A DNA stretch of 64,000 nucleotides, from contig NZ_CP041638.1 in the NCBI RefSeq assembly GCF_007197775.1, positions 682,001 to 746,000 on the forward strand, in the 5' to 3' direction. The position numbers and the translations under genes were made by a program. Below, in pieces: positions 36,595-47,124 of the stretch; positions within the stretch are counted from its first letter, which is position 1, and each line of letters opens with the position of its first letter. The notes beneath the pieces were generated by a model. The model was not told the DNA's origin and searched no databases. It was given only the letters and a program-made list of their open reading frames with translations. The DNA is from Thalassotalea sp. PS06 (lineage in GTDB: Bacteria; Pseudomonadota; Gammaproteobacteria; Enterobacterales; Alteromonadaceae).

Positions 36595-37029
36595 TTGCCC
36601 GCATCTATTGGTTCTCGCACTGCCCTTGGTTTTGACTTTGGTACCCGTCATATCGGTATTGCCTATGGGCAGGAGATAACCGGTAGCGCCAGGCCATTAA
36701 AAGCGATTAAGGCAAAAGATGGAGTACCCAATTTTGATTTAATCGAAGCTCTTATCAAAGAGTGGCAGCCGGATATTCTTATAATTGGCCTGCCTTTGAA
36801 TATGGACGGCACCGAGCAACCATTCACTGCTCGCGCCAAGAAGTTTGCCAATCGCTTACACGGCCGTTTTGGCTTGCCGGTAGAAATGCAGGATGAGCGT
36901 TTAACCACAGCTGATGCAAAACAAAGCCTGTTTAATCAGGGTGGTTATCGGAATCTGCAAAAAGATAATATTGATTGCCAGTCCGCGGTGGTTATTCTTG
37001 AAAGCTGGTTTGAGAGTCAATACAGCTAG
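36595..37029 (+). CDS. yqgF: Holliday junction resolvase-like RuvX/YqgF
   Basis: A 144-residue RNase H-fold protein. [14 protein letters not shown] holds the first acidic residue, [14 protein letters not shown] follows and [10 protein letters not shown] carries the second. In E. coli this protein takes part in pre-16S rRNA 5' processing; resolvase activity is inferred from structure. The start is TTG, 8 bases after GGAG. Usually it is tightly linked to yqgE; here they are split by a terminator and a 17-bp repeat array. Confidence 0.93.
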
Positions 37030-37033
37030 TTAA

Positions 37034-38968
37034 CTAAGTACTACTAACTTCGCCAATCCCAGGTGCTTTAGCATCTACTTTCACCGAATTGTCGCTAGCG
37101 TCGCTATTGCCATCAACAATCAGCTTATGCCCATCCTTATGACAATCCACTTGCATCCGGGCTTCACAACTTGCCAACAACGAATAGATGGTTTCTTTAC
37201 GTTCGCTTAAATCGACCAACATGCTGGTGGTGTGATACGGGAAGCGATAGGTAAGGAACATTCTTGGGTTTAACGTATCGATGGTTTTTATAATTTTGCT
37301 GTGCAGCAACATTAGCGTATGCATATTGGTATTCGGTAATAGCATGACCAGCATATCGCCCTTATAGCGGCCTATTAATGCACCATGTGGCGCATTGTCT
37401 TGAAGAATTTCCGTAGTTCTTTCAATCAACCAATCGGTTAAGGTGTGTCCACTGCGATAGTTAATTTCCGATAACTGATCCAGCTGTAAACACAGTAGCG
37501 TGGCGTTATGCTGCTGTTGTTGTAACTCCTGCCACTTTATAGAGAAATGCTTTAATAAATTGGCGCGATGAAAAACCTTGGTTAATGGATCAAGTTGTAA
37601 TTTATCTAACAACGCGTTGCGAGAGCTGCGAATACCAAACACACTCAGCATCAAACCAGCAATTACGATACCACCCAGAGCGATGTAACCGATACTGATA
37701 AGGTTTTGCTGGCTTAGTGCATCAATCTCACGATTAACAATTTTCAGTTGCGAATGCTGTTTTGCCAGGTGATCACTTAGCTCGGTTATCAGCTGCTTAT
37801 TCTTATCTAGCTCAAATTCTAAGTGTTTGCGCACCGATTCCTGGGCACGTTGTTGTAGGTAATGATTATGCTGGCGCTCAAGTTGATCCGCCATATACAC
37901 GTATACCTGCTCGGGCGTACCTTTTGATCGTGCCAGTTTTGTGGCAACTTTAGACGCCTCGTAAAGGCCATGATTAACCCTGAACTGGCTCGCATATTCC
38001 ATAGCTTTAACGCTAAACTCCCAGGCGCGCTCGGTATCACCCGTATGATAAAAACTCACCGCCAAATGGGCATAAAACTCCGCCTTATTCATCGGGTAAT
38101 TGCCTTTTTCTACTGACGATAAACGAGGTGCCAGGTTGTCGATTACCCAAGCATAATTGCCTTCGCGAACCTGCAGTTCGGCCATATCCGCCATCACCCC
38201 TTCAACGATAATCGTCTCGCCAATGTCTTTACAGAAATTCATCGTTGAGTGGTAAAGCACGTCATCTGGAGAAGTTGAATTTAAACCAATTAAGGCACTG
38301 AGCTTATGGGAAAACACCAGGCATTGTTGGCGTTCCGTCAGGTGACGATTGGTTAAACGGCCGAGGTACTCCAGAGCTTGTTTATGTGCCCCTAATTGAT
38401 TATGAAAGTAACCAATCCCCATTAAGGTTTTGGTATAAAGCTCAGGCTCGATTTGCGGATGTGGCAATAAGCCAAGAATATCGTTGAGTTGATCAACCGC
38501 GAGCTGATGATCGCGTTGTAAGAGGTGCAAATTCATGATGTAACTCAATGCCTGAAGGCGGATGTTTACATCATCACTTTTTTTTAATTTTTGATAGGCT
38601 TCTAAAGAGTCCTGATACTTACCTTCAAGAATCAGACGATAGGCTTGAAGGTGATCATAGTGAGCCTTTTCCTGTTCACTCAGGCTTCGATTTTTTAAGA
38701 TCTCAAGTAACGTAGCGCTCAGTTCAATGTCGGTGGAGCGTACCTGCGTTGCTTCATCAAGCAGGTCTTTGTTTTGCCATGCACGATAATCCGGCGCAGC
38801 ATCATGAGCCGATACAGACACTGCAATGAAAAAGCTCATAACCATAACCGGGAGAGGTAAAATCCCCTTTACAACCCTTAAAACTCCTTGGGAAATTGGG
38901 CGTCGACTTAATTTCCTTGTCCTGGCCAACAATACGTCTGTAATCTGTTGTTTAGGCATCTTCAGCAT
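37034..38968 (-). CDS. TPR sensor with transmembrane helix and degenerate GGDEF domain (paralogue 2)
   Basis: A 644-residue protein: signal/anchor (about 36-54), helical TPR-like region (about 60-380), coiled coil (380-420), transmembrane helix (about 423-447, LISIGYIALGGIVIAG) and a C-terminal domain that starts LDPLTKVFHR as in diguanylate cyclases. The catalytic loop reads GRYKGDML at 533-540 where active enzymes have GGDEF/GGEEF, so cyclase activity is not expected. The first 17 bp overlap the end of the preceding gene, its apparent paralogue, implying coupling. It is the last gene of the putative borosin operon; signalling or scaffold function is an inference. Confidence 0.82.
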   Translation of the reverse strand: MLKMPKQQITDVLLARTRKLSRRPISQGVLRVVKGILPLPVMVMSFFIAVSVSAHDAAPDYRAWQNKDLLDEATQVRSTDIELSATLLEILKNRSLSEQEKAHYDHLQAYRLILEGKYQDSLEAYQKLKKSDDVNIRLQALSYIMNLHLLQRDHQLAVDQLNDILGLLPHPQIEPELYTKTLMGIGYFHNQLGAHKQALEYLGRLTNRHLTERQQCLVFSHKLSALIGLNSTSPDDVLYHSTMNFCKDIGETIIVEGVMADMAELQVREGNYAWVIDNLAPRLSSVEKGNYPMNKAEFYAHLAVSFYHTGDTERAWEFSVKAMEYASQFRVNHGLYEASKVATKLARSKGTPEQVYVYMADQLERQHNHYLQQRAQESVRKHLEFELDKNKQLITELSDHLAKQHSQLKIVNREIDALSQQNLISIGYIALGGIVIAGLMLSVFGIRSSRNALLDKLQLDPLTKVFHRANLLKHFSIKWQELQQQQHNATLLCLQLDQLSEINYRSGHTLTDWLIERTTEILQDNAPHGALIGRYKGDMLVMLLPNTNMHTLMLLHSKIIKTIDTLNPRMFLTYRFPYHTTSMLVDLSERKETIYSLLASCEARMQVDCHKDGHKLIVDGNSDASDNSVKVDAKAPGIGEVSST

Positions 38969-41300
38969 CCGCTACCTCCATACATTGATGGTTTCCAGTG
39001 CCAGGATGATCCTGCTTAAACAAGGATGCTGACTGGTTATCCCGATAGTTCGGGCTTTCAATAATGGGGTGCGGGCAAAACGCTATATCCTGCTCATTAG
39101 CCTTTTTCTTCGCCGTTACCGTGTGCAGGGCGGCAATCAGATCCATCATGATATAGCGGAAACGATGACCACTATTGTCACTATGAGTCACACCAATTTC
39201 GACGTTTTCTCTGGCTAGATGCAGGCTTAATCTTTTGTGCAGCGCATTGGCCAATGCCAGGGTCTGCTCTTTGTCGGTATCGCTCAAGAGCAGGGTAAAC
39301 TTGCTGTAACTGGTTCTGGCCAATAAAAACGATTTTTTCGATTCACGATACTCGCCATCTTTAAATAGGGCAAAGTACAGCATCTTAAGTTTACTGAAAA
39401 AATCAGGCGCACAGGGCCAAGGCTCAGGTTGATTTGTACCAAGGGTTTTATTGACCAGTTCGGCTGTGACAGAAACGGTTTCTTGCATCATTAACTGGTT
39501 CTGGTATTCCAACAAGCGGTGTTTTGAAAAGTTCGCCTGCTCGCTCGTTTTCGTTTCCGAAGCAGTAGATTCAGGTTGCTTATTTACCGAGAAATTACCT
39601 TCACTGCCCGATTCATTAATGGCACGATATTCACCTTGAAGTTCGTTATCCGATACCGGTATCAAAGACTCTTGCGTTGCCGGAATACGAATCACAATGG
39701 CACCCACCTTGCTTTGGTGGTTGTGCCATTTGGGAAGGTTTAATTCTGCAAGCGTTACAAAGCTTTCCCGGGATAGGGCACCGCTGACGCTATCTAGCAG
39801 CTGTTGCTTCTTCAATGGTCCCAAAATGCGCAAGTAACGTCGCATATAGACGTACAACACCAGTATTATCACGGCGATGGCGAACAATAAAAATTGCACT
39901 GCGACACGATTTTGGACGCTATCTTGCAGAGCTAAGTGCGCTTCCTGCTGCTTTTCGTTAGCTTGTAACAAGCTTTGTTTAAGCTCGAGACGTTTGGATT
40001 CGTCTAAAAGTTGTGCTAGACGAATTTGCTCTCTAGCTTGAGCTTTAGCGATTTCCTTATTTAGAGTAAATTCGAGATGACGTTGATAATGGTCTAAAAA
40101 ATATTGCGCCTTTTCGATATTATCTTGACTTTTAAAGTAGTCTGCTAAGACTTTGTAACTGGTAGCCACCCAACGACTGTTATAGTTTTTGGTTTCTAAC
40201 CTTTCCAACTCTTCAATCAAAAGTTGAGAATGGACCTTAGATTTTTCGTAATCATTCGTTCGCCAATGATACTCTAGTAAGGTTCTCTGATTATCGAGAT
40301 AATGAAATTGATTACCGACGATAATTGCTTGGTACTGGTCAAGTAGCTTGCCAACTTGTTCAACCATACCATTGTCTAGATAGTATTTTGAAGCTTCCAA
40401 AAGTACTGCATTAAACAACAAGTGTTCATTAGCTTCTAAACACCTAAATTCACCTTCGTGAAAGCTTGTGCTTATAGCATTCTTTCGGCCAAATCCTATA
40501 GTGTTGATCAATCGATGCATTGATAAAATACAACGATCTCGAGGAGAGAGCCGTACATATTTTACCTGCGACAAAACTTTCGAGGCGAGCGAGAATTCAC
40601 CAACGTGATTGTAAAAATATCCCAGTGTTAGCAGGCCCTGATTTTTGAGATCGCCCTCTTGAAAACCAGATAACGTTTCTCTCACTTTTTGCTGGTATTC
40701 AACTGCTAGCGCGTAATTTTCAGTGATGATACCTACATTTAATAAGTTGTAATGAGCTCTCAACCGCACTTGAACATTGGTATGATTAGACAATTCGCGA
40801 TGAAGTGAAATTGCTAATTTTGTATCTTTTAGCAATATCGCTCGATGTGCTTTAAAGTACTTTAGTTCTGTATCGTTAATTGGAGTTAGGGAGAGATCTG
40901 TCCGAGCTACGAATTCATCGATTAGCTGAACTAAATTAATAAAGCGCGGTAAATATTGGGTACGTATACTTTCGATACCGTCAATTGATATCGATAATTC
41001 ACGATTAAAGCGAAGCCGTTCGGGTTCAGTTAGAGATGTCTTATTTCTCCAGGATTGAATCCAGATTTCGATATTTGTTAAGTTTTGCTCCGAACTAATT
41101 GATTTTTCTTCAAGGTTTACTTTGTTAGCGCTTGTAGCGGCAACAACTTGCAATGAAATGGTGCTAAAGCCAACAACAATACAAGTTAGATAAAGTGAGG
41201 GAAATAAAGTTAGAGGCTTAGAAGTAAAGTCGCGCAGTGTCTTATACAAATTTGCTATTGCATAAGTTATCGTTTCATTTTTGTATGTGTAATATGACAC
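38952..41300 (-). CDS. TPR sensor with transmembrane helix and degenerate GGDEF domain (paralogue 1)
   Basis: A 782-residue protein with the same plan as the 644-residue neighbour: N-terminal hydrophobic anchor (about 33-54), periplasmic TPR-like helices (about 75-430), coiled coil, transmembrane helix (about 484-505) and a C-terminal region with the remnant LDSVSGALSRESF of the GGDEF-domain start. No GGDEF, RxxD or other catalytic motif is left, and a polar insert (about 560-620) interrupts the fold. The N-terminal part looks more AT-rich by eye than its neighbours. It begins 23 bp after the precursor-like gene and overlaps the next gene by 17 bp. Confidence 0.8.
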   Translation of the reverse strand: MSYYTYKNETITYAIANLYKTLRDFTSKPLTLFPSLYLTCIVVGFSTISLQVVAATSANKVNLEEKSISSEQNLTNIEIWIQSWRNKTSLTEPERLRFNRELSISIDGIESIRTQYLPRFINLVQLIDEFVARTDLSLTPINDTELKYFKAHRAILLKDTKLAISLHRELSNHTNVQVRLRAHYNLLNVGIITENYALAVEYQQKVRETLSGFQEGDLKNQGLLTLGYFYNHVGEFSLASKVLSQVKYVRLSPRDRCILSMHRLINTIGFGRKNAISTSFHEGEFRCLEANEHLLFNAVLLEASKYYLDNGMVEQVGKLLDQYQAIIVGNQFHYLDNQRTLLEYHWRTNDYEKSKVHSQLLIEELERLETKNYNSRWVATSYKVLADYFKSQDNIEKAQYFLDHYQRHLEFTLNKEIAKAQAREQIRLAQLLDESKRLELKQSLLQANEKQQEAHLALQDSVQNRVAVQFLLFAIAVIILVLYVYMRRYLRILGPLKKQQLLDSVSGALSRESFVTLAELNLPKWHNHQSKVGAIVIRIPATQESLIPVSDNELQGEYRAINESGSEGNFSVNKQPESTASETKTSEQANFSKHRLLEYQNQLMMQETVSVTAELVNKTLGTNQPEPWPCAPDFFSKLKMLYFALFKDGEYRESKKSFLLARTSYSKFTLLLSDTDKEQTLALANALHKRLSLHLARENVEIGVTHSDNSGHRFRYIMMDLIAALHTVTAKKKANEQDIAFCPHPIIESPNYRDNQSASLFKQDHPGTGNHQCMEVADAEDA

Positions 41301-41323
41301 GGCGCTGAGTTTTTATTTAATTC

Positions 41324-41590
41324 TTAAACGGCAACTGCTTGGCTAGGTTGCTGCGGTTCATCTTCATTTTCATCAGGACTATCTTCATCATCTTCGATAA
41401 TGATGCCACAGACAATTGGGGACAGATTCATTAGAGTTTCGAGCGCATTGGCATCACCTTCTAGAATGGCTTTTTGCGTAACTTCTGAAAGCTCCAAATC
41501 TTGCATTTGCTGTTTTAGGTTTTCCAAAGTGTGGTCGGAAAGGTTGGCATCTTCACCTAAACGCTCTAATAACTGGATGACATTTGACAT
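41324..41590 (-). CDS. Putative borosin-type RiPP precursor (SonA-like)
   Basis: An 88-residue acidic protein; the ATG at 41590 follows GGGGAAA, better than an ATG 30 bases earlier. Residues 1-54 look like the helical borosin-binding leader of SonA: MSNVIQLLERLGEDANL has Leu11-Gly12, Asp14-Ala15 and Leu17 at the same positions as I recall for SonA, and AILEGDANALETL (41-53) matches its second helix. Then comes a short hydrophobic stretch (Ser57-Pro-Ile-Val-Cys-Gly-Ile-Ile-Ile65), a plausible N-methylated core, and a tail of Asp/Glu/Pro/Gln. SonM-like methyltransferase lies just upstream. The assignment is by pattern; methylation is not shown by sequence. Confidence 0.75.
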   Translation of the reverse strand: MSNVIQLLERLGEDANLSDHTLENLKQQMQDLELSEVTQKAILEGDANALETLMNLSPIVCGIIIEDDEDSPDENEDEPQQPSQAVAV

Positions 41591-42019
41591 AGGATTTCCC
41601 CTTTTTGTTATTGTTAACAAACACTTATGTGTTCCATGTTGATGTTATTGTTGATGTTTTTATGGTGTAAAACGATAACCTTCGTTTTGCCACAAAGACT
41701 TATATTCCCACTATCGATTGCAAGTTAAAAGCCCAAATATGTTTTTTTTAACGACTTTGCATATTTCGCTGTGAATGTGGATTAAGTGTTAATCAATACT
41801 TCAGAAATTCGCTGATAAATTAGATAGTTATTCAACAACCTTGAAACTATTTTAATTAGAATAATTATCTACATAATCACATTATTTTCAGAATAATCAA
41901 TGATAATTTTATCCTTGAAAACGTACTGATATAAACTTAAGAAAAAGTACTTTGTTTACAGAAAGTTACAATTGCAAAACTTTTGTACCAGTTTGTAGCA
42001 GTTTTTCAATCAAGGTGAC
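41591..42019 (-). other. AT-rich leader between methyltransferase and precursor genes
   Basis: About 430 bp without an ORF, strongly AT-rich with A/T runs, unlike the flanking genes. It contains a short duplicated word (AACATCAACAAT-like, read on the minus strand) close to the precursor start. No factor-independent terminator and no convincing -35/-10 pair were found. It probably holds a separate promoter and a long 5' UTR for the precursor, possibly H-NS-type silenced DNA. Confidence 0.5.
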
Positions 42020-42820
42020 TTAACCGCAATTCTGCAGCGAAATTGCATCCAGTTGCGCTAACTTTGCGCGTATTTCCTTATTAGCTTTTAGCTTTGCCGA
42101 TGGTGGCAATAACATGGTTGTTATTTGCGAGGTTGCCGTTACTGGGAATTCCCCGAGCTTTATCTGAGTAATGCGAGTGGATTCAATGGCAAGGGTCTGG
42201 GCTTCATATAAGGTTATTTGGTGATCCAGTGGGTAATATTCACTCAGTACATCGACCAACAATTGTTTATATGGAGTCGAGGTTGTAAATTGATAGTCAC
42301 TATCGCCGAGAATGCCGACCTGCCAGAGGATCAGGTAGGCGCTGTTATCTACAGGGCGGTGGTTACGAATAAACTGGCTGGCTTCAAAACTGGCACATCC
42401 TCGTTGTCCAGGATCAACGCCACAGTCTGCTAATAAACAATCATCGGCGGAAATACCCGGTAGCATTTGTGCTTGATAGCCTTCTTCTCTGGCTTGTTCA
42501 ATGGCCCAGTGTGGCGGTGAGGCGAATATTCCCGGGTGTCCATAAAAAGCGCCAACGACGTTTTTACCATCTCGCACCGCCTTCAGCATTGCCTCGACCA
42601 TTTCCTTGTAGGTTTGTTTGCGGGGTTTACCTTTTTGGTAATACTGCTGTAAATCATGGACGTTTGGATTCATTTCACTCAGCCAAAGGCGGGCGAGACT
42701 AGAGTTCATCGCGCTAAATACGATATCAGCCTGTTCGATATGCTTGCGGGCGTTCGGGGTTAAATGTGCTCCGAGAGTAATACCCGTTCCCACACAAGTT
42801 AAACTGCCTTTTTTATTCAT
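42020..42820 (-). CDS. Tetrapyrrole-methylase-family borosin N-methyltransferase (SonM-like)
   Basis: A 266-residue SAM enzyme of the TP-methylase fold. SLTCVGTGITLGAHLT (6-21) and AFYGHPGIFA (91-100) are the SAM-site loops; LPGISADDCLLADCGVDPG (110-128) and SFEASQF (134-140) follow as in SonM of Shewanella. Tyr61, Arg67 and Tyr71 keep the Y-x5-R-x3-Y spacing of the OphMA catalytic residues Tyr66/Arg72/Tyr76. There is no cobalamin or siroheme pathway gene nearby, and a SonA-like precursor gene follows. Inferred function: iterative alpha-N-methylation of the peptide backbone. SD: AAGGAAGTAGT. Confidence 0.85.
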   Translation of the reverse strand: MNKKGSLTCVGTGITLGAHLTPNARKHIEQADIVFSAMNSSLARLWLSEMNPNVHDLQQYYQKGKPRKQTYKEMVEAMLKAVRDGKNVVGAFYGHPGIFASPPHWAIEQAREEGYQAQMLPGISADDCLLADCGVDPGQRGCASFEASQFIRNHRPVDNSAYLILWQVGILGDSDYQFTTSTPYKQLLVDVLSEYYPLDHQITLYEAQTLAIESTRITQIKLGEFPVTATSQITTMLLPPSAKLKANKEIRAKLAQLDAISLQNCG

Positions 42821-42842
42821 ACTACTTCCTTATTGAAAACGA

Positions 42843-43415
42843 TTAAGCTGAAGCTTTTTGATTCTTGCTTTGAGGTGTTGACTGGCATCGAGGTACGATG
42901 ATCCAGTCGGTTTCTGAAACCTGAATTCGATGAAAAGGCAGGTTCTCCACAAGTTTTTTTGACGCGGTATTATCTGCTTCATATCGGCACAGAATTTCGT
43001 CGACCTGCAACGTTGAAAATGCGTGTGTAATCAGGTGATTGAGAATCTCCTGGCCATAACCTGCTCTGTGGTATTTGGCGTGCAAATGAATTCCTGCTTC
43101 AACGGCTTTACATTGTTTCGCCCAGATAAGCGCACAAACACCGATAGCATGACTAGAATCTTTTTCGATGATCTTAAATTGCAGTAACTTACCGTGACTA
43201 TGGTTTCTGCAAATGTACTTAAATAGCTTGCTGATTTTTTCAGGCGACTTTACACCACCGATATGGCGACAAGTGTCCAGGCACAGATACAGGTTATGGT
43301 AAAAGCTTCTGTCATCCTTACTCGCGGCATTTAGCGGTTGGAAAATTAATCTGGCACTAGGTGGTGGTGTCAGGCTGATATCCGCATCGATTGTGGGGGC
43401 TGATACATCTTCCAT
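42843..43415 (-). CDS. GNAT (RimJ/RimL-type) N-acetyltransferase
   Basis: A 190-residue acetyltransferase. ARLIFQPLNAASKDD opens the RimJ/L-like fold, and AGIHLHAKYHRAGYGQEILNHLITHAF carries the acetyl-CoA motif (R-x-G-Y-G). NTASKKLVENLPFHRI is the usual second signature (NxxSxK-x-x-E-x-xxF). It is 22 bp upstream of the methyltransferase gene, so probably the first gene of the same transcript; it could modify the borosin product or be unrelated. No SD is visible before the ATG at 43415; three 19-bp repeats lie directly upstream instead. Confidence 0.78.
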   Translation of the reverse strand: MEDVSAPTIDADISLTPPPSARLIFQPLNAASKDDRSFYHNLYLCLDTCRHIGGVKSPEKISKLFKYICRNHSHGKLLQFKIIEKDSSHAIGVCALIWAKQCKAVEAGIHLHAKYHRAGYGQEILNHLITHAFSTLQVDEILCRYEADNTASKKLVENLPFHRIQVSETDWIIVPRCQSTPQSKNQKASA

Positions 43416-43418
43416 ATG

Positions 43419-43475
43419 GATTCAAAAACACGTCATGGATTCAATTACACGTAATGGGTTTAATACTTCGTAATG
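43419..43475. repeat. Three 19-bp imperfect direct repeats upstream of the GNAT gene
   Basis: Units at 43419-43437, 43438-43456 and 43457-43475 share GATTCAA-x-x-ACACGT-x-ATG in the plus-strand reading, with the last unit more diverged. They end 3 bp from the GNAT start codon, where an SD would be expected. They could be regulator sites or a simple tandem expansion. Confidence 0.7.
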
Positions 43476-43526
43476 GATGATTCAGCTTGCTATGAATTGG
43501 AAGGGGAGTCAACTGAGCTGTTCGTC

Positions 43527-43650
43527 ATTTCCAGCTACGACTGGAAATTATAGCTTTGTAGTTCGAGCTGCGCCGCAGAGCAGATTTGTTCCCGAAGGCC
43601 AGTTTCTCCCCCAGCGGGAAGAACCGTCATTTCCAGCTATGACTGGAAAT
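43527..43650. repeat. Two REP-like palindromic units
   Basis: ATTTCCAG - 6 bases - CTGGAAAT occurs at 43527-43548 and again at 43629-43650, each preceded by CGTC and followed by ATAGCTTTG. A relative lies near 17720, and the CCGG-type relatives are at 55.9-56.1 kb. The spacing between the two copies is 102 bp. This is typical of dispersed extragenic palindromes. Confidence 0.75.
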
Positions 43651-43705
43651 CATAGCTTTGTTTGTTGGCTTGTCCGAAGAGCAATTTTGGCTGTCCCTGA
43701 AAACA

Positions 43706-43730
43706 AAAAAAGGACCTGCAGGTCCTTTTT
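43706..43730 (-). terminator. serA terminator
   Basis: Perfect 10-bp stem AAAAAGGACC / GGTCCTTTTT with a 4-base loop, 16 bp after the serA stop on the minus strand, T-run included in the stem. Confidence 0.9.
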
Positions 43731-43746
43731 GTAGCATTTCTTAAAA

Positions 43747-44976
43747 CTAGTGAATTAATCGGGCGCGGATGGTGCCTTCAATTGCCTTTAATTCTTTCAA
43801 GGCGGTGTCACTGTCTTTGGAATCCAGGTCGATAACCACATAACCGATTTTGTCGTCGGTTTGCAGGTACTGTGAAGCGATGTTAATGCCGCGGTCTGCA
43901 AACGCCTGGTTGATCTGAGTTAACACACCCGGGCGGTTATGGTGGATATGGAATAAACGGGAACGATCGACGTTTGCTGGTAGCGATACTTCCGGGAAGT
44001 TAACTGCAGAAACCGTAGAACCATTGTCTGAGTATTTAATGATTTTGCTGGCAACTTCAATGCCGATGTTTTCCTGAGCTTCCTGAGTACTGCCACCAAT
44101 ATGAGGCGTCAGGATAACGTTATCGAATTCACGAAGCGGTGAGATGAACTCATCGTCGTTCGATTTTGGCTCAACCGGGAATACGTCGATAGCAGCGCCT
44201 CCCACCTTTTTGCTTTTCACCGCTGCTGCCAGGGCATCGATATCCACCACAGTACCGCGAGAAGCATTAATGAAAATAACGCCATCTTTCATCTGTGCAA
44301 ATTGCTCAGTGCTGATCATATCCTGAGTGTCGACGGTTTCTGGTACATGTAATGAAACCACATCGGCACAATTAAGCAGTTCTTTCAGGCTGCGGCACGG
44401 GCTGGCATTTCCTAACGGTAATTTAGTTTCGATATCGTAAAACTTTACTCGCATACCTAAGTGCTCAGCGAGAATACCTAGTTGTGTACCGATATGACCG
44501 TAACCAATGATACCTAAGGTTTTGCCGCGGGCTTCAACAGAACCCGCTGCCGATTTTAACCATTCGCCACGGTGGGCAAGAGCGCTTTTTTCCGGAACGC
44601 CACGAAATAGTAATAACAATTCGCCAATGACCAGCTCAGCAACAGAACGGGTGTTGGAAAATGGCGCGTTGAATACCGGAATACCACGAATTTGCGCGGC
44701 CGCTAAATCCACCTGGTTAGTACCAATACAGAAGCAGCCGATCGCCGCCAGTTTTTTCGCATGGCTTAATACGTCGTCCGACAATTGCGTCCGTGAACGA
44801 ATACCTACAAAGTGCACATTGGCGATCTTTTCTTTCAGCTCTTCGTCTGGCAATGAGCTTTTCAGATATTCAATGTTGCTATAACCGTTGTCTTTTAACG
44901 TTTCTACGGCACTTGGGTGCACGCCTTCAAGCAATAAAATACGAATTTTATCTTTGTGCAGCGATTGTCGGGTCAT
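43747..44976 (-). CDS. serA: D-3-phosphoglycerate dehydrogenase
   Basis: A 409-residue enzyme that opens the serine pathway by oxidising 3-phosphoglycerate with NAD. NAD-binding motif LGIIGYGHIGTQLG (about 153-166), the catalytic Arg in INASRGTVVD, the Glu region of DVFPVEPKS and the His of LTPHIGGST. The C-terminal ACT domain (about 335-409, FHIHHNRPGVL) is the serine feedback site, as in the E. coli type. Next upstream is rpiA, same strand, in the conserved order. Confidence 0.97.
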   Translation of the reverse strand: MTRQSLHKDKIRILLLEGVHPSAVETLKDNGYSNIEYLKSSLPDEELKEKIANVHFVGIRSRTQLSDDVLSHAKKLAAIGCFCIGTNQVDLAAAQIRGIPVFNAPFSNTRSVAELVIGELLLLFRGVPEKSALAHRGEWLKSAAGSVEARGKTLGIIGYGHIGTQLGILAEHLGMRVKFYDIETKLPLGNASPCRSLKELLNCADVVSLHVPETVDTQDMISTEQFAQMKDGVIFINASRGTVVDIDALAAAVKSKKVGGAAIDVFPVEPKSNDDEFISPLREFDNVILTPHIGGSTQEAQENIGIEVASKIIKYSDNGSTVSAVNFPEVSLPANVDRSRLFHIHHNRPGVLTQINQAFADRGINIASQYLQTDDKIGYVVIDLDSKDSDTALKELKAIEGTIRARLIH

Positions 44977-46296: not shown

Positions 46297-46683
46297 ATGA
46301 AAATATTAACGTCAATGGTAACGGCTGGGTTTTTAATTGCATCAGCCAATACTCAGGCTCTGGAGTACCGATTTGTGGCAACTGACAATTCACCAGCAAC
46401 GCGAGCGTGTGTGTCTGCAGCAAGTGACGACGTAAGCGAATTGAAGAAAACCGTAAATCGTTCATTCAATAGCAATGCAGATTTGATGAGTTTGACTGTT
46501 TTATGTAATGACCAGGATATTAATGCGTTTGCCCATGCATATGGTGCGGTTGAAACTGGCAACTATTTGAATCGGGTGGTACCAAGAAAAATGAGAATTG
46601 ATGACTCAGTAGAAATTATCGATGTCAGTGCTTATGTTCCTAATGTAGAGGGGGGCGTTACTATCTACGTGGCAGGAAAGTAA
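46297..46683 (+). CDS. DUF3718 secreted protein, copy 1
   Basis: A 128-residue exported protein; signal peptide 1-22 (ending TQA). Mature domain with two conserved cysteines (ACVSAAS and LCNDQDINAFAH), the FVATDNS start and the NYLNRV segment characteristic of DUF3718. The two Cys could form a disulfide. Strong SD AAGGAGAG. A paralogue follows 51 bp downstream, so a tandem duplication. Function unknown; periplasmic location inferred. Confidence 0.82.
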   Translation: MKILTSMVTAGFLIASANTQALEYRFVATDNSPATRACVSAASDDVSELKKTVNRSFNSNADLMSLTVLCNDQDINAFAHAYGAVETGNYLNRVVPRKMRIDDSVEIIDVSAYVPNVEGGVTIYVAGK

Positions 46684-46734: not shown

Positions 46735-47124
46735 ATGAGAAATGTTATTTCAATGGTCATAGGTGCCGCTCTTGCGCTAGGTTTAGCAACCAGCCAGGCC
46801 GCAGAGTATGAGTTTATTGCTGCCGATAATTCCGTGGAAACTAAAACATGTGTTTACGCAGCAGCGGATGATTTACAGGGATTGAAAAAACAAGTGCGAC
46901 GTTCTTACGATAATAATGTTCGTTATATGAGCCAGCTGCTTAGGTGCAATGACCAGGATATCAATACGTTTGCACACACCTACGGCGCTGAAGGCACTGC
47001 AGGTTATTTGAATAATAGGGTATCAGCAGCATACCGGGTTGATGAGTCAATAGAAATCATTGATGTCAGCAAAGCTGATTCAACAAACCAAGGAAAGGTT
47101 ACTGTTTATGTGATGAGTAAATAG
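46735..47124 (+). CDS. DUF3718 secreted protein, copy 2
   Basis: A 129-residue paralogue of the preceding gene: signal peptide 1-22 (ending SQA), FIAADNS, TCVYAAADDLQGLKKQVRRSY, the LRCNDQDINTFAH block and GYLNNRV in the same places. Both cysteines are retained. SD CAGGAG. Same operon as copy 1, ended by the terminator at 47162-47200. Confidence 0.82.
   Translation: MRNVISMVIGAALALGLATSQAAEYEFIAADNSVETKTCVYAAADDLQGLKKQVRRSYDNNVRYMSQLLRCNDQDINTFAHTYGAEGTAGYLNNRVSAAYRVDESIEIIDVSKADSTNQGKVTVYVMSK

Follow-up and report, generated by a model that had tools for sequence, protein, structure and literature searches.

A cassette of five open reading frames (ORFs) in a marine bacterium, Thalassotalea sp. 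PS06, in which a putative peptide methyltransferase and its candidate precursor lie beside an acetyltransferase and two membrane proteins, raises the question of what the peptide is for and what its neighbours have to do with it. The window, a 64,000-nucleotide stretch of the genome that was analysed as a whole, carries the cassette entirely on its minus strand in the order GNAT acetyltransferase, methyltransferase (MT), precursor, MP1 and MP2, each gene at the place stated in a preliminary description made from the sequence. The spacing is 22 nt between GNAT and MT, 429 nt between MT and precursor and 23 nt between precursor and MP1, while MP1 and MP2 share 17 nt. The reading developed here, to which we give an even chance, is that the locus is a split-borosin cassette acting as a peptide–receptor module, in which an exported TPR receptor, whose outputs are interchangeable, would have the methylated peptide as its ligand.

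An Rfam scan of positions 36900-44000 returned nothing at the gathering score. Promoter-like sites (13, with 15.7 expected) and terminator-like sites (7, with 6.6 expected) are about as numerous as expected, so that they do not support any transcription units. A dispersed repeat of 37 bases that looks palindromic has two copies, 95% alike, at 43523-43559 and 43625-43661; a 187-base query around the second copy has 57 matches in the genome including itself, and at C1:1322530-1323859 copies of the repeat form a row about 107 bases apart. Two adjoining ORFs of 128 and 129 residues (46297-46683 and 46735-47124) look by eye like tandem paralogues with a signal-peptide-like start.

The methyltransferase and its precursor peptide

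The MT (266 residues; 42020..42820) matches 25 distinct PDB sequences, led by SonM and its variants (PDB entry 7ltc, E = 3.6e-72; 49% identity to SonM) and followed by fungal OphMA-type enzymes (E = 3e-56 and weaker). Tyr61, Arg67 and Tyr71, to which the preliminary description had drawn attention, are indeed present and, together with Tyr93, align with Tyr58, Arg67, Tyr71 and Tyr93 of SonM; according to the mutant data of PMC8429565, the substitutions Y58F, R67K, Y71F and Y93F lower the efficiency of SonM about 14-fold, 97-fold, 98-fold and 1.6-fold, respectively. A census of 295 genomes of the order to which the window belongs yielded 107 MTs (match at E ≤ 1e-20) in 71 genomes, and the residues at these four positions are identical in 107/107. 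A discrete enzyme of the SonM/OphMA type carrying the substrate-positioning Tyr/Arg/Tyr residues supports assignment as a split-borosin backbone N-methyltransferase. Tetrapyrrole (cobalamin or siroheme) methylation was considered as an alternative function and rejected: no NCBIfam cut-off of those pathways is reached, their best equivalogs scoring 24.3 and 23.5 bits against cut-offs of 391 and 163, and the best model overall, YabN, gives 45.9 bits against a cut-off of 525.

The precursor gene (41324..41590) encodes 88 residues when read from its ATG; the frame is also open from an earlier TTG start at 41620. As a single sequence compared with the PDB it matched SonA at E values of 0.26-0.88 only, and nine homologues besides itself were found. 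A profile built from 23 precursors (A4) was more telling: against 177,635 PDB sequences it gave seven matches at E ≤ 1, all of them SonA (E = 1.4e-6 to 1.2e-5), the aligned stretch covering roughly residues 1-56 (41423..41590). A separately encoded precursor with a borosin-binding leader domain is what this alignment describes, and it supports the earlier suggestion that the ORF is a SonA-like precursor of the MT. TAL-effector matches of the precursor, with E values down to 2.2e-12, were rejected as an identity because, in the alignments shown, the score adds up from numerous repeat matches worth about 1-5 bits apiece.

Residues 57-88 (41327..41422) follow the aligned leader and comprise a presumed core (SPIVCGIII), taken to begin at residue 57, and an acidic C-terminal tail; many precursors of relatives likewise have a hydrophobic, often cysteine-containing stretch and an acidic tail. 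By analogy with SonM/SonA, the peptide is probably methylated on its backbone. In the census, a precursor was found by profile for 81 of the 107 MTs, and for 20 of the 22 MTs that have a TPR neighbour without a precursor match a small same-strand ORF lies in the gap, most of these ORFs being leader-like by eye and some not (for example that of L198). The loci L042, L051 and L077 carry several precursors apiece, with five matches in L042; in both L051 and L077, one precursor shows by eye two cysteine-containing, core-like stretches.

A probable tailoring acetyltransferase of acidic-tail precursors

The first gene of the cassette, ACETYLTRANSFERASE (GNAT), encodes an N-acetyltransferase of 190 residues (42843..43415; Pfam Acetyltransf_3, E = 4.1e-17). 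A GNAT gene lies within 1.5 kb of 37 of the 107 census MTs and, among the 81 MTs with a precursor found by profile, accompanies 37 of the 41 whose precursor has an acidic tail and none of the other 40. An acidic tail was counted as at least eight Asp or Glu residues in the last 30, a threshold set after viewing the sequences; because of this, and because the two groups are largely two clades, a Fisher p value for the association would not be fair as a probability. The GNAT belongs to the acidic-tail class of precursors and is probably a tailoring enzyme of them. When counted anywhere in the locus, it occurs in 48 of the 80 relatives kept for comparison (described below), and none was found in L006, the locus of the closest relative.

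A TPR protein beside nearly every methyltransferase

The preliminary description had presented the partners of MT and precursor as new and, as far as its author knew, undescribed as a system; these partners are not peculiar to this locus. A scan of named genomes gave 384 relatives, of which the best 80 were kept, among them loci from Thalassotalea, Shewanella, Paraglaciecola, Rhodanobacter, Dyella, Arenimonas and others; being the most similar relatives, they are a biased sample. An ORF of the TPR-GGDEF family lies near the MT in all 80 by map reading, and in 78 with a match of 300-1200 residues, the ORF being cut by a contig end in L044 and L065. The census locus nearest SonM/SonA has it too: at L150, an MT 92.5% identical to SonM and a SonA-like precursor are followed just downstream by a TPR-GGDEF gene (596 residues). 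A precursor match of 50-250 residues is found in 73 of the 80 loci, or 76 when longer ORFs are counted, and none in L017, L023, L070 and L074.

The census extends this to the order (103 stretches examined, with four MT matches falling inside a neighbour's stretch). An ORF matching the TPR profile (E ≤ 1e-3) lies within 3.5 kb of 102 of the 107 MTs, 101 times on the same strand, the five MTs without one being those of L109, L195, L203, L204 and L207. As a control for this linkage the count was reversed, with up to six candidates scored per genome: 105 of 118 TPR matches at E ≤ 1e-40 are within 7 kb of an MT, where about 0.6% would be expected by chance, and among the weaker matches listed (E from 1e-20 to 1e-39) 7 of 20 are. 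Of the 13 strong matches away from any MT, 12 are in genomes with an MT elsewhere, and no precursor was found beside the orphan TPR genes (19 orphan loci, L209-L227). What had been described as new partners are near-constant partners of the MT in the order, and roles first read from adjacency are strengthened, the TPR protein being tied to the MT across the order and the GNAT to one precursor type.

The receptor gene trails the precursor closely: with ORFs taken from their first possible starts, the median gap is 5 nt, and it does not exceed 60 nt in 69 of 80 cases. Among the 80 loci kept, five (L037, L042, L046, L080 and L083) have a second receptor with its own adjoining precursor; at L081 the second receptor is a 75-residue fragment only. 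At least eight other kept loci (L006, L007, L008, L010, L033, L040, L061 and L082) have two or more receptors and one precursor match. When 2269 ORFs of at least 100 residues from 183 loci were clustered, no exporter or protease family recurred with the cassette, and no other flanking family occurred in more than 23 of the 183 loci, the third largest (23 loci) being wholly on the opposite strand.

In a survey of the phylum, 15 of 398 genomes had an MT match, 11 of them in the order of the window; of the new loci, the three from the same class all have a precursor and a TPR-GGDEF gene. L229:3457-6981 belongs to another class, with a fused MT protein of 1174 residues and no TPR match, adjoining P450-like and other biosynthesis-like ORFs (labelled by eye). 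At L228:6384-9015, which extends L109, a GNAT, an MT and two near-identical precursors are followed by a GGDEF remnant of 42 residues only, and the receptor seems to have been lost there.

Co-divergence of the peptide with its partners

Pairwise distances were compared over 131 loci, two of 133 sets having been dropped as duplicates. With MT distance taken into account, the distance between TPR domains correlates with that between precursor cores (r = 0.40) and between leaders (r = 0.38); the corresponding values for MT given TPR are lower (0.11 for the core and 0.19 for the leader), and those for GGDEF given MT are 0.33 and 0.10. Within MT clusters defined at three cuts, r is 0.61, 0.52 and 0.46 for core and TPR and 0.36, 0.48 and 0.47 for core and GGDEF, all combinations being significant (p = 0.001-0.003; 999 permutations); at the loosest cut the core–GGDEF correlation is not weaker than the core–TPR one. 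Since the alignment has 367 TPR columns as opposed to 175 GGDEF columns, which favours TPR, it is not claimed that the TPR domain rather than the GGDEF domain is the contact.

Output domains and what they may say of the peptide

Sorted by output, the partners of the 107 MTs comprise 69 with a GGDEF domain, 17 with a histidine kinase and 16 with TPR alone, five MTs having no TPR neighbour. Pfam models run on 17 of the TPR proteins found two with GGDEF, four with TPR alone and 11 with kinase domains, with or without receiver or Hpt domains; within the kinase class, L188 has HATPase only and L123, at a contig end, HisKA only, and the Pfam TPR models found no match in the L122 and L123 proteins. 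Parsimony places six output changes on the MT tree (FastTree, midpoint-rooted, with low support for some branches), one of them due to L171, a TPR-only case that looks like a split TPR-GGDEF gene.

The motif is GGEEF in 69 of the 76 GGDEF-class proteins of the census, the other seven being the two in the window, L119 (GGEEI), L184, L185, L190 and L197. In an alignment of 93 copies, to which 76 of the 80 kept loci contribute 91 and the window the other two, it reads GGEEF in 79, GADEF in five, GGDEF in three and GATEF in one, is not covered in one and is degenerate in four, which are the two of the window and the two of L006. An N-terminal hydrophobic segment is present in 73 of 76 GGDEF-class, 16 of 16 kinase-class and 30 of 30 TPR-only proteins; a stricter hydropathy cut found it within 60 residues in 65 of the 93 proteins of the first set, whose ORF starts are uncertain. 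Judged from hydropathy, the TPR domain would lie outside the cytoplasm. A cysteine pair in the TPR domain is found in 76 of 76 GGDEF-class, 28 of 30 TPR-only and 2 of 16 kinase-class proteins; since 14 of the 16 kinase-class proteins lack it, their TPR may be only generically alike, and some TPR proteins in the class may have a different origin. Four tandem TPR-only genes adjoin one MT at L172:2143-6947.

A near-constant exported sensor with a swapped or missing output suggests, without proving it, that the peptide is a signal. The TPR-only proteins, which have no output and mostly (26 of 30) no transmembrane helix after residue 250, fit a carrier equally well: the exported TPR protein may be a periplasmic carrier or adaptor that directs the methylated peptide toward a housekeeping protease or exporter, with the GGDEF or kinase only adjusting supply. 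This explanation, which we consider rather doubtful, is favoured by the 16 of 107 MTs whose neighbours are TPR-only proteins that carry a signal-like segment (the L171 case being perhaps a split gene), by the tandem set of L172 and by the want of a recurring dedicated protease or exporter at the loci, and the tight spacing of precursor and TPR genes and their co-divergence suit physical contact of any kind. However, TPR proteins fused repeatedly to a GGDEF or histidine kinase output have the layout usual for sensors, and GGEEF is retained in 79 of the 91 cassette copies as well as in most GGDEF-class proteins of the census.

Regulators commonly sit in biosynthetic clusters, and TPR-GGDEF proteins are sensors by architecture. 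The TPR-GGDEF and TPR-kinase proteins could on these grounds sense something else, controlling production of an ordinary secreted natural product without binding the peptide, and the correlation of GGDEF distance with core distance is also in keeping with this. We regard it as unlikely: the receptor trails the precursor at very short distance and is duplicated together with it in five loci, and the core co-diverges more with the TPR domain than with the MT.

The candidate receptors of the window

The genome to which the window belongs has two full-length members of the cassette TPR family, MP1 (782 residues; 38952..41300) and MP2 (644 residues; 37034..38968; Pfam GGDEF, E = 7.7e-19). Each has an N-terminal hydrophobic segment, a TPR superhelix (MP1 residues 63-416, 40053..41114; MP2 residues 58-380, 37829..38797), a transmembrane helix and a degenerate GGDEF-like domain (MP1 about residues 501-743, 39072..39800; MP2 residues 458-620, 37109..37597). 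In the predicted models (mean pLDDT 78.0 and pTM 0.52 for MP1; 82.6 and 0.56 for MP2), the TPR parts of both match the peptide-binding superhelices of Rap, NprR and APPBP2, and that of MP2 also AimR; APC subunits are matched by both and LGN additionally by MP1. As LGN, APC subunits and APPBP2 are among the matches, these speak for the fold without proving pheromone binding. The C-terminal parts of both models match GGDEF domains, and the GG[DE]EF active site is replaced by SYSKF in MP1 and KGDML in MP2, which bears out the 'degenerate GGDEF' of the preliminary description. Because the active site is lost in both, MP1 and MP2 are more likely to be non-catalytic signalling proteins of the GGDEF fold. 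Since GADEF or GGDEF copies occur at two other Thalassotalea loci, L007 and L008, the motif was perhaps lost stepwise in this lineage.

Cys216 and Cys246 of MP2, which correspond to Cys257 and Cys287 of MP1, are the sole columns without variation in a TPR alignment of 24 rows; the predicted structure places them in adjacent helices, where they could form a disulphide. Between the window and L006, MP2 is 64% identical in its TPR domain and 62% in its GGDEF-like domain (pN/pS 0.30 and 0.28); the synonymous sites are saturated (pS 0.78-0.86 per gene), so no dN/dS ratio is claimed and selection on MP1 and MP2 is hinted at weakly. That the two are decaying receptor copies, adjacent without function in a lineage that has lost the pathway output, is very improbable: in its favour, the window and L006 alike have lost both GGDEF sites, and MP1 is only 39% identical to its L006 counterpart; against it, two species keep both ORFs intact, MP2 is conserved to the extent just given, the cysteine pair is present in all four copies and the motif is degenerate in another family too (L184, L185, L190 and L197).

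A possible mechanism

In the peptide–receptor reading, the MT would bind the leader domain of the precursor and N-methylate backbone amides in the C-terminal core, as SonM does with SonA, and the GNAT would probably acetylate peptides of the acidic-tail class. The trimmed peptide would leave the cytoplasm by a route encoded elsewhere than the locus and bind to the TPR superhelix that the adjacent receptor would expose outside it. Through a single transmembrane helix the receptor would then pass its state to an output in the cytoplasm, a GGEEF domain in most relatives and otherwise a histidine kinase or nothing. The points in favour are the identity of MT and precursor, the MT–TPR linkage, the variety of outputs, the precursor–TPR spacing, the paired duplications, the N-terminal hydrophobic segment and cysteine pair of the TPR proteins, the core–TPR co-divergence, the low recurrence of all other flanking families and the likeness to peptide-bound Rap, NprR and AimR. 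On the other side stand the missing exporter or protease family, the TPR-only proteins without output, the lower count of N-terminal segments at the stricter hydropathy cut, the weaker TPR matches mostly away from an MT, the saturated synonymous sites against L006, the multi-receptor loci with one precursor, the 13 TPR orphans, the 5/107 MTs without TPR, the core–GGDEF correlation, the kinase class mostly lacking the cysteine pair and the generic TPR fold matches.

A wider proposal, held tentatively and at less than even confidence, is that the split borosins of Gammaproteobacteria are backbone-N-methylated signals, each with a dedicated exported TPR receptor whose outputs (c-di-GMP synthesis, two-component phosphorylation or a non-catalytic GGDEF domain) are interchangeable; they would be a RiPP-based Gram-negative counterpart to the Gram-positive pheromone receptors built on TPR, but would work at the outer face of the inner membrane. 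A receptor gene fixed beside the precursor turns the purpose of the peptide into a question that can be tested by binding and deletion. If the receptor reading is true, c-di-GMP sensors gain a defined peptide ligand, and the lineage of the window, with two receptors lacking the GGDEF active site, poses the case of a receptor role without making c-di-GMP.

Comparison with known systems

Overall, the interpretation given in the preliminary description is partly supported. An MT with a separate precursor is not new in kind, and what the census adds is the near-constancy of the TPR partner. The GGDEF link has already been published, at least in part, since the one legend of PMC11395268 that concerns it (a 2024 paper; Fig. 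1, on bacterial borosin types) names a 'GGDEF-sequence-containing domain' among the architectures. That legend likewise has a class with a separate MT and a BBD-core precursor; TPR, kinase and acetyltransferase are absent from the legend, whereas the window has TPR and GNAT. Miller et al. describe the Shewanella cluster as small and conserved, with GGDEF, TPR and GNAT absent from the main text, and the part of PMC11285071 that summarises borosin types IV-X does so without receptors. A literature search, within whose scope subscription papers mostly did not fall, found nothing joining borosin with diguanylate or tetratricopeptide, and likewise for shewanellamide; the TPR partner may already be in print, and its novelty is provisional.

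The closest known system is the type IV split borosin SonM/SonA of Shewanella oneidensis (PMC8429565), which likewise has a separate MT with the Tyr/Arg/Tyr/Tyr residues and a separate precursor with a leader domain. The window differs from it in an MT of 49% identity, in the cysteine-containing presumed core and acidic tail of its precursor, and in the addition of a GNAT gene and a pair of receptors that lack the GGDEF active site. Membrane diguanylate cyclases share the GGDEF fold with MP1 and MP2, in both of which the active-site motif is lost. The RRNPP receptors (Rap, NprR and AimR) share the TPR superhelix, a likeness of fold only at about 4-15% identity; they are cytoplasmic, as stated in PMC4147580, whereas MP1 and MP2 have, by hydropathy, an N-terminal hydrophobic segment and one transmembrane helix after the TPR domain, followed by the GGDEF-like domain.
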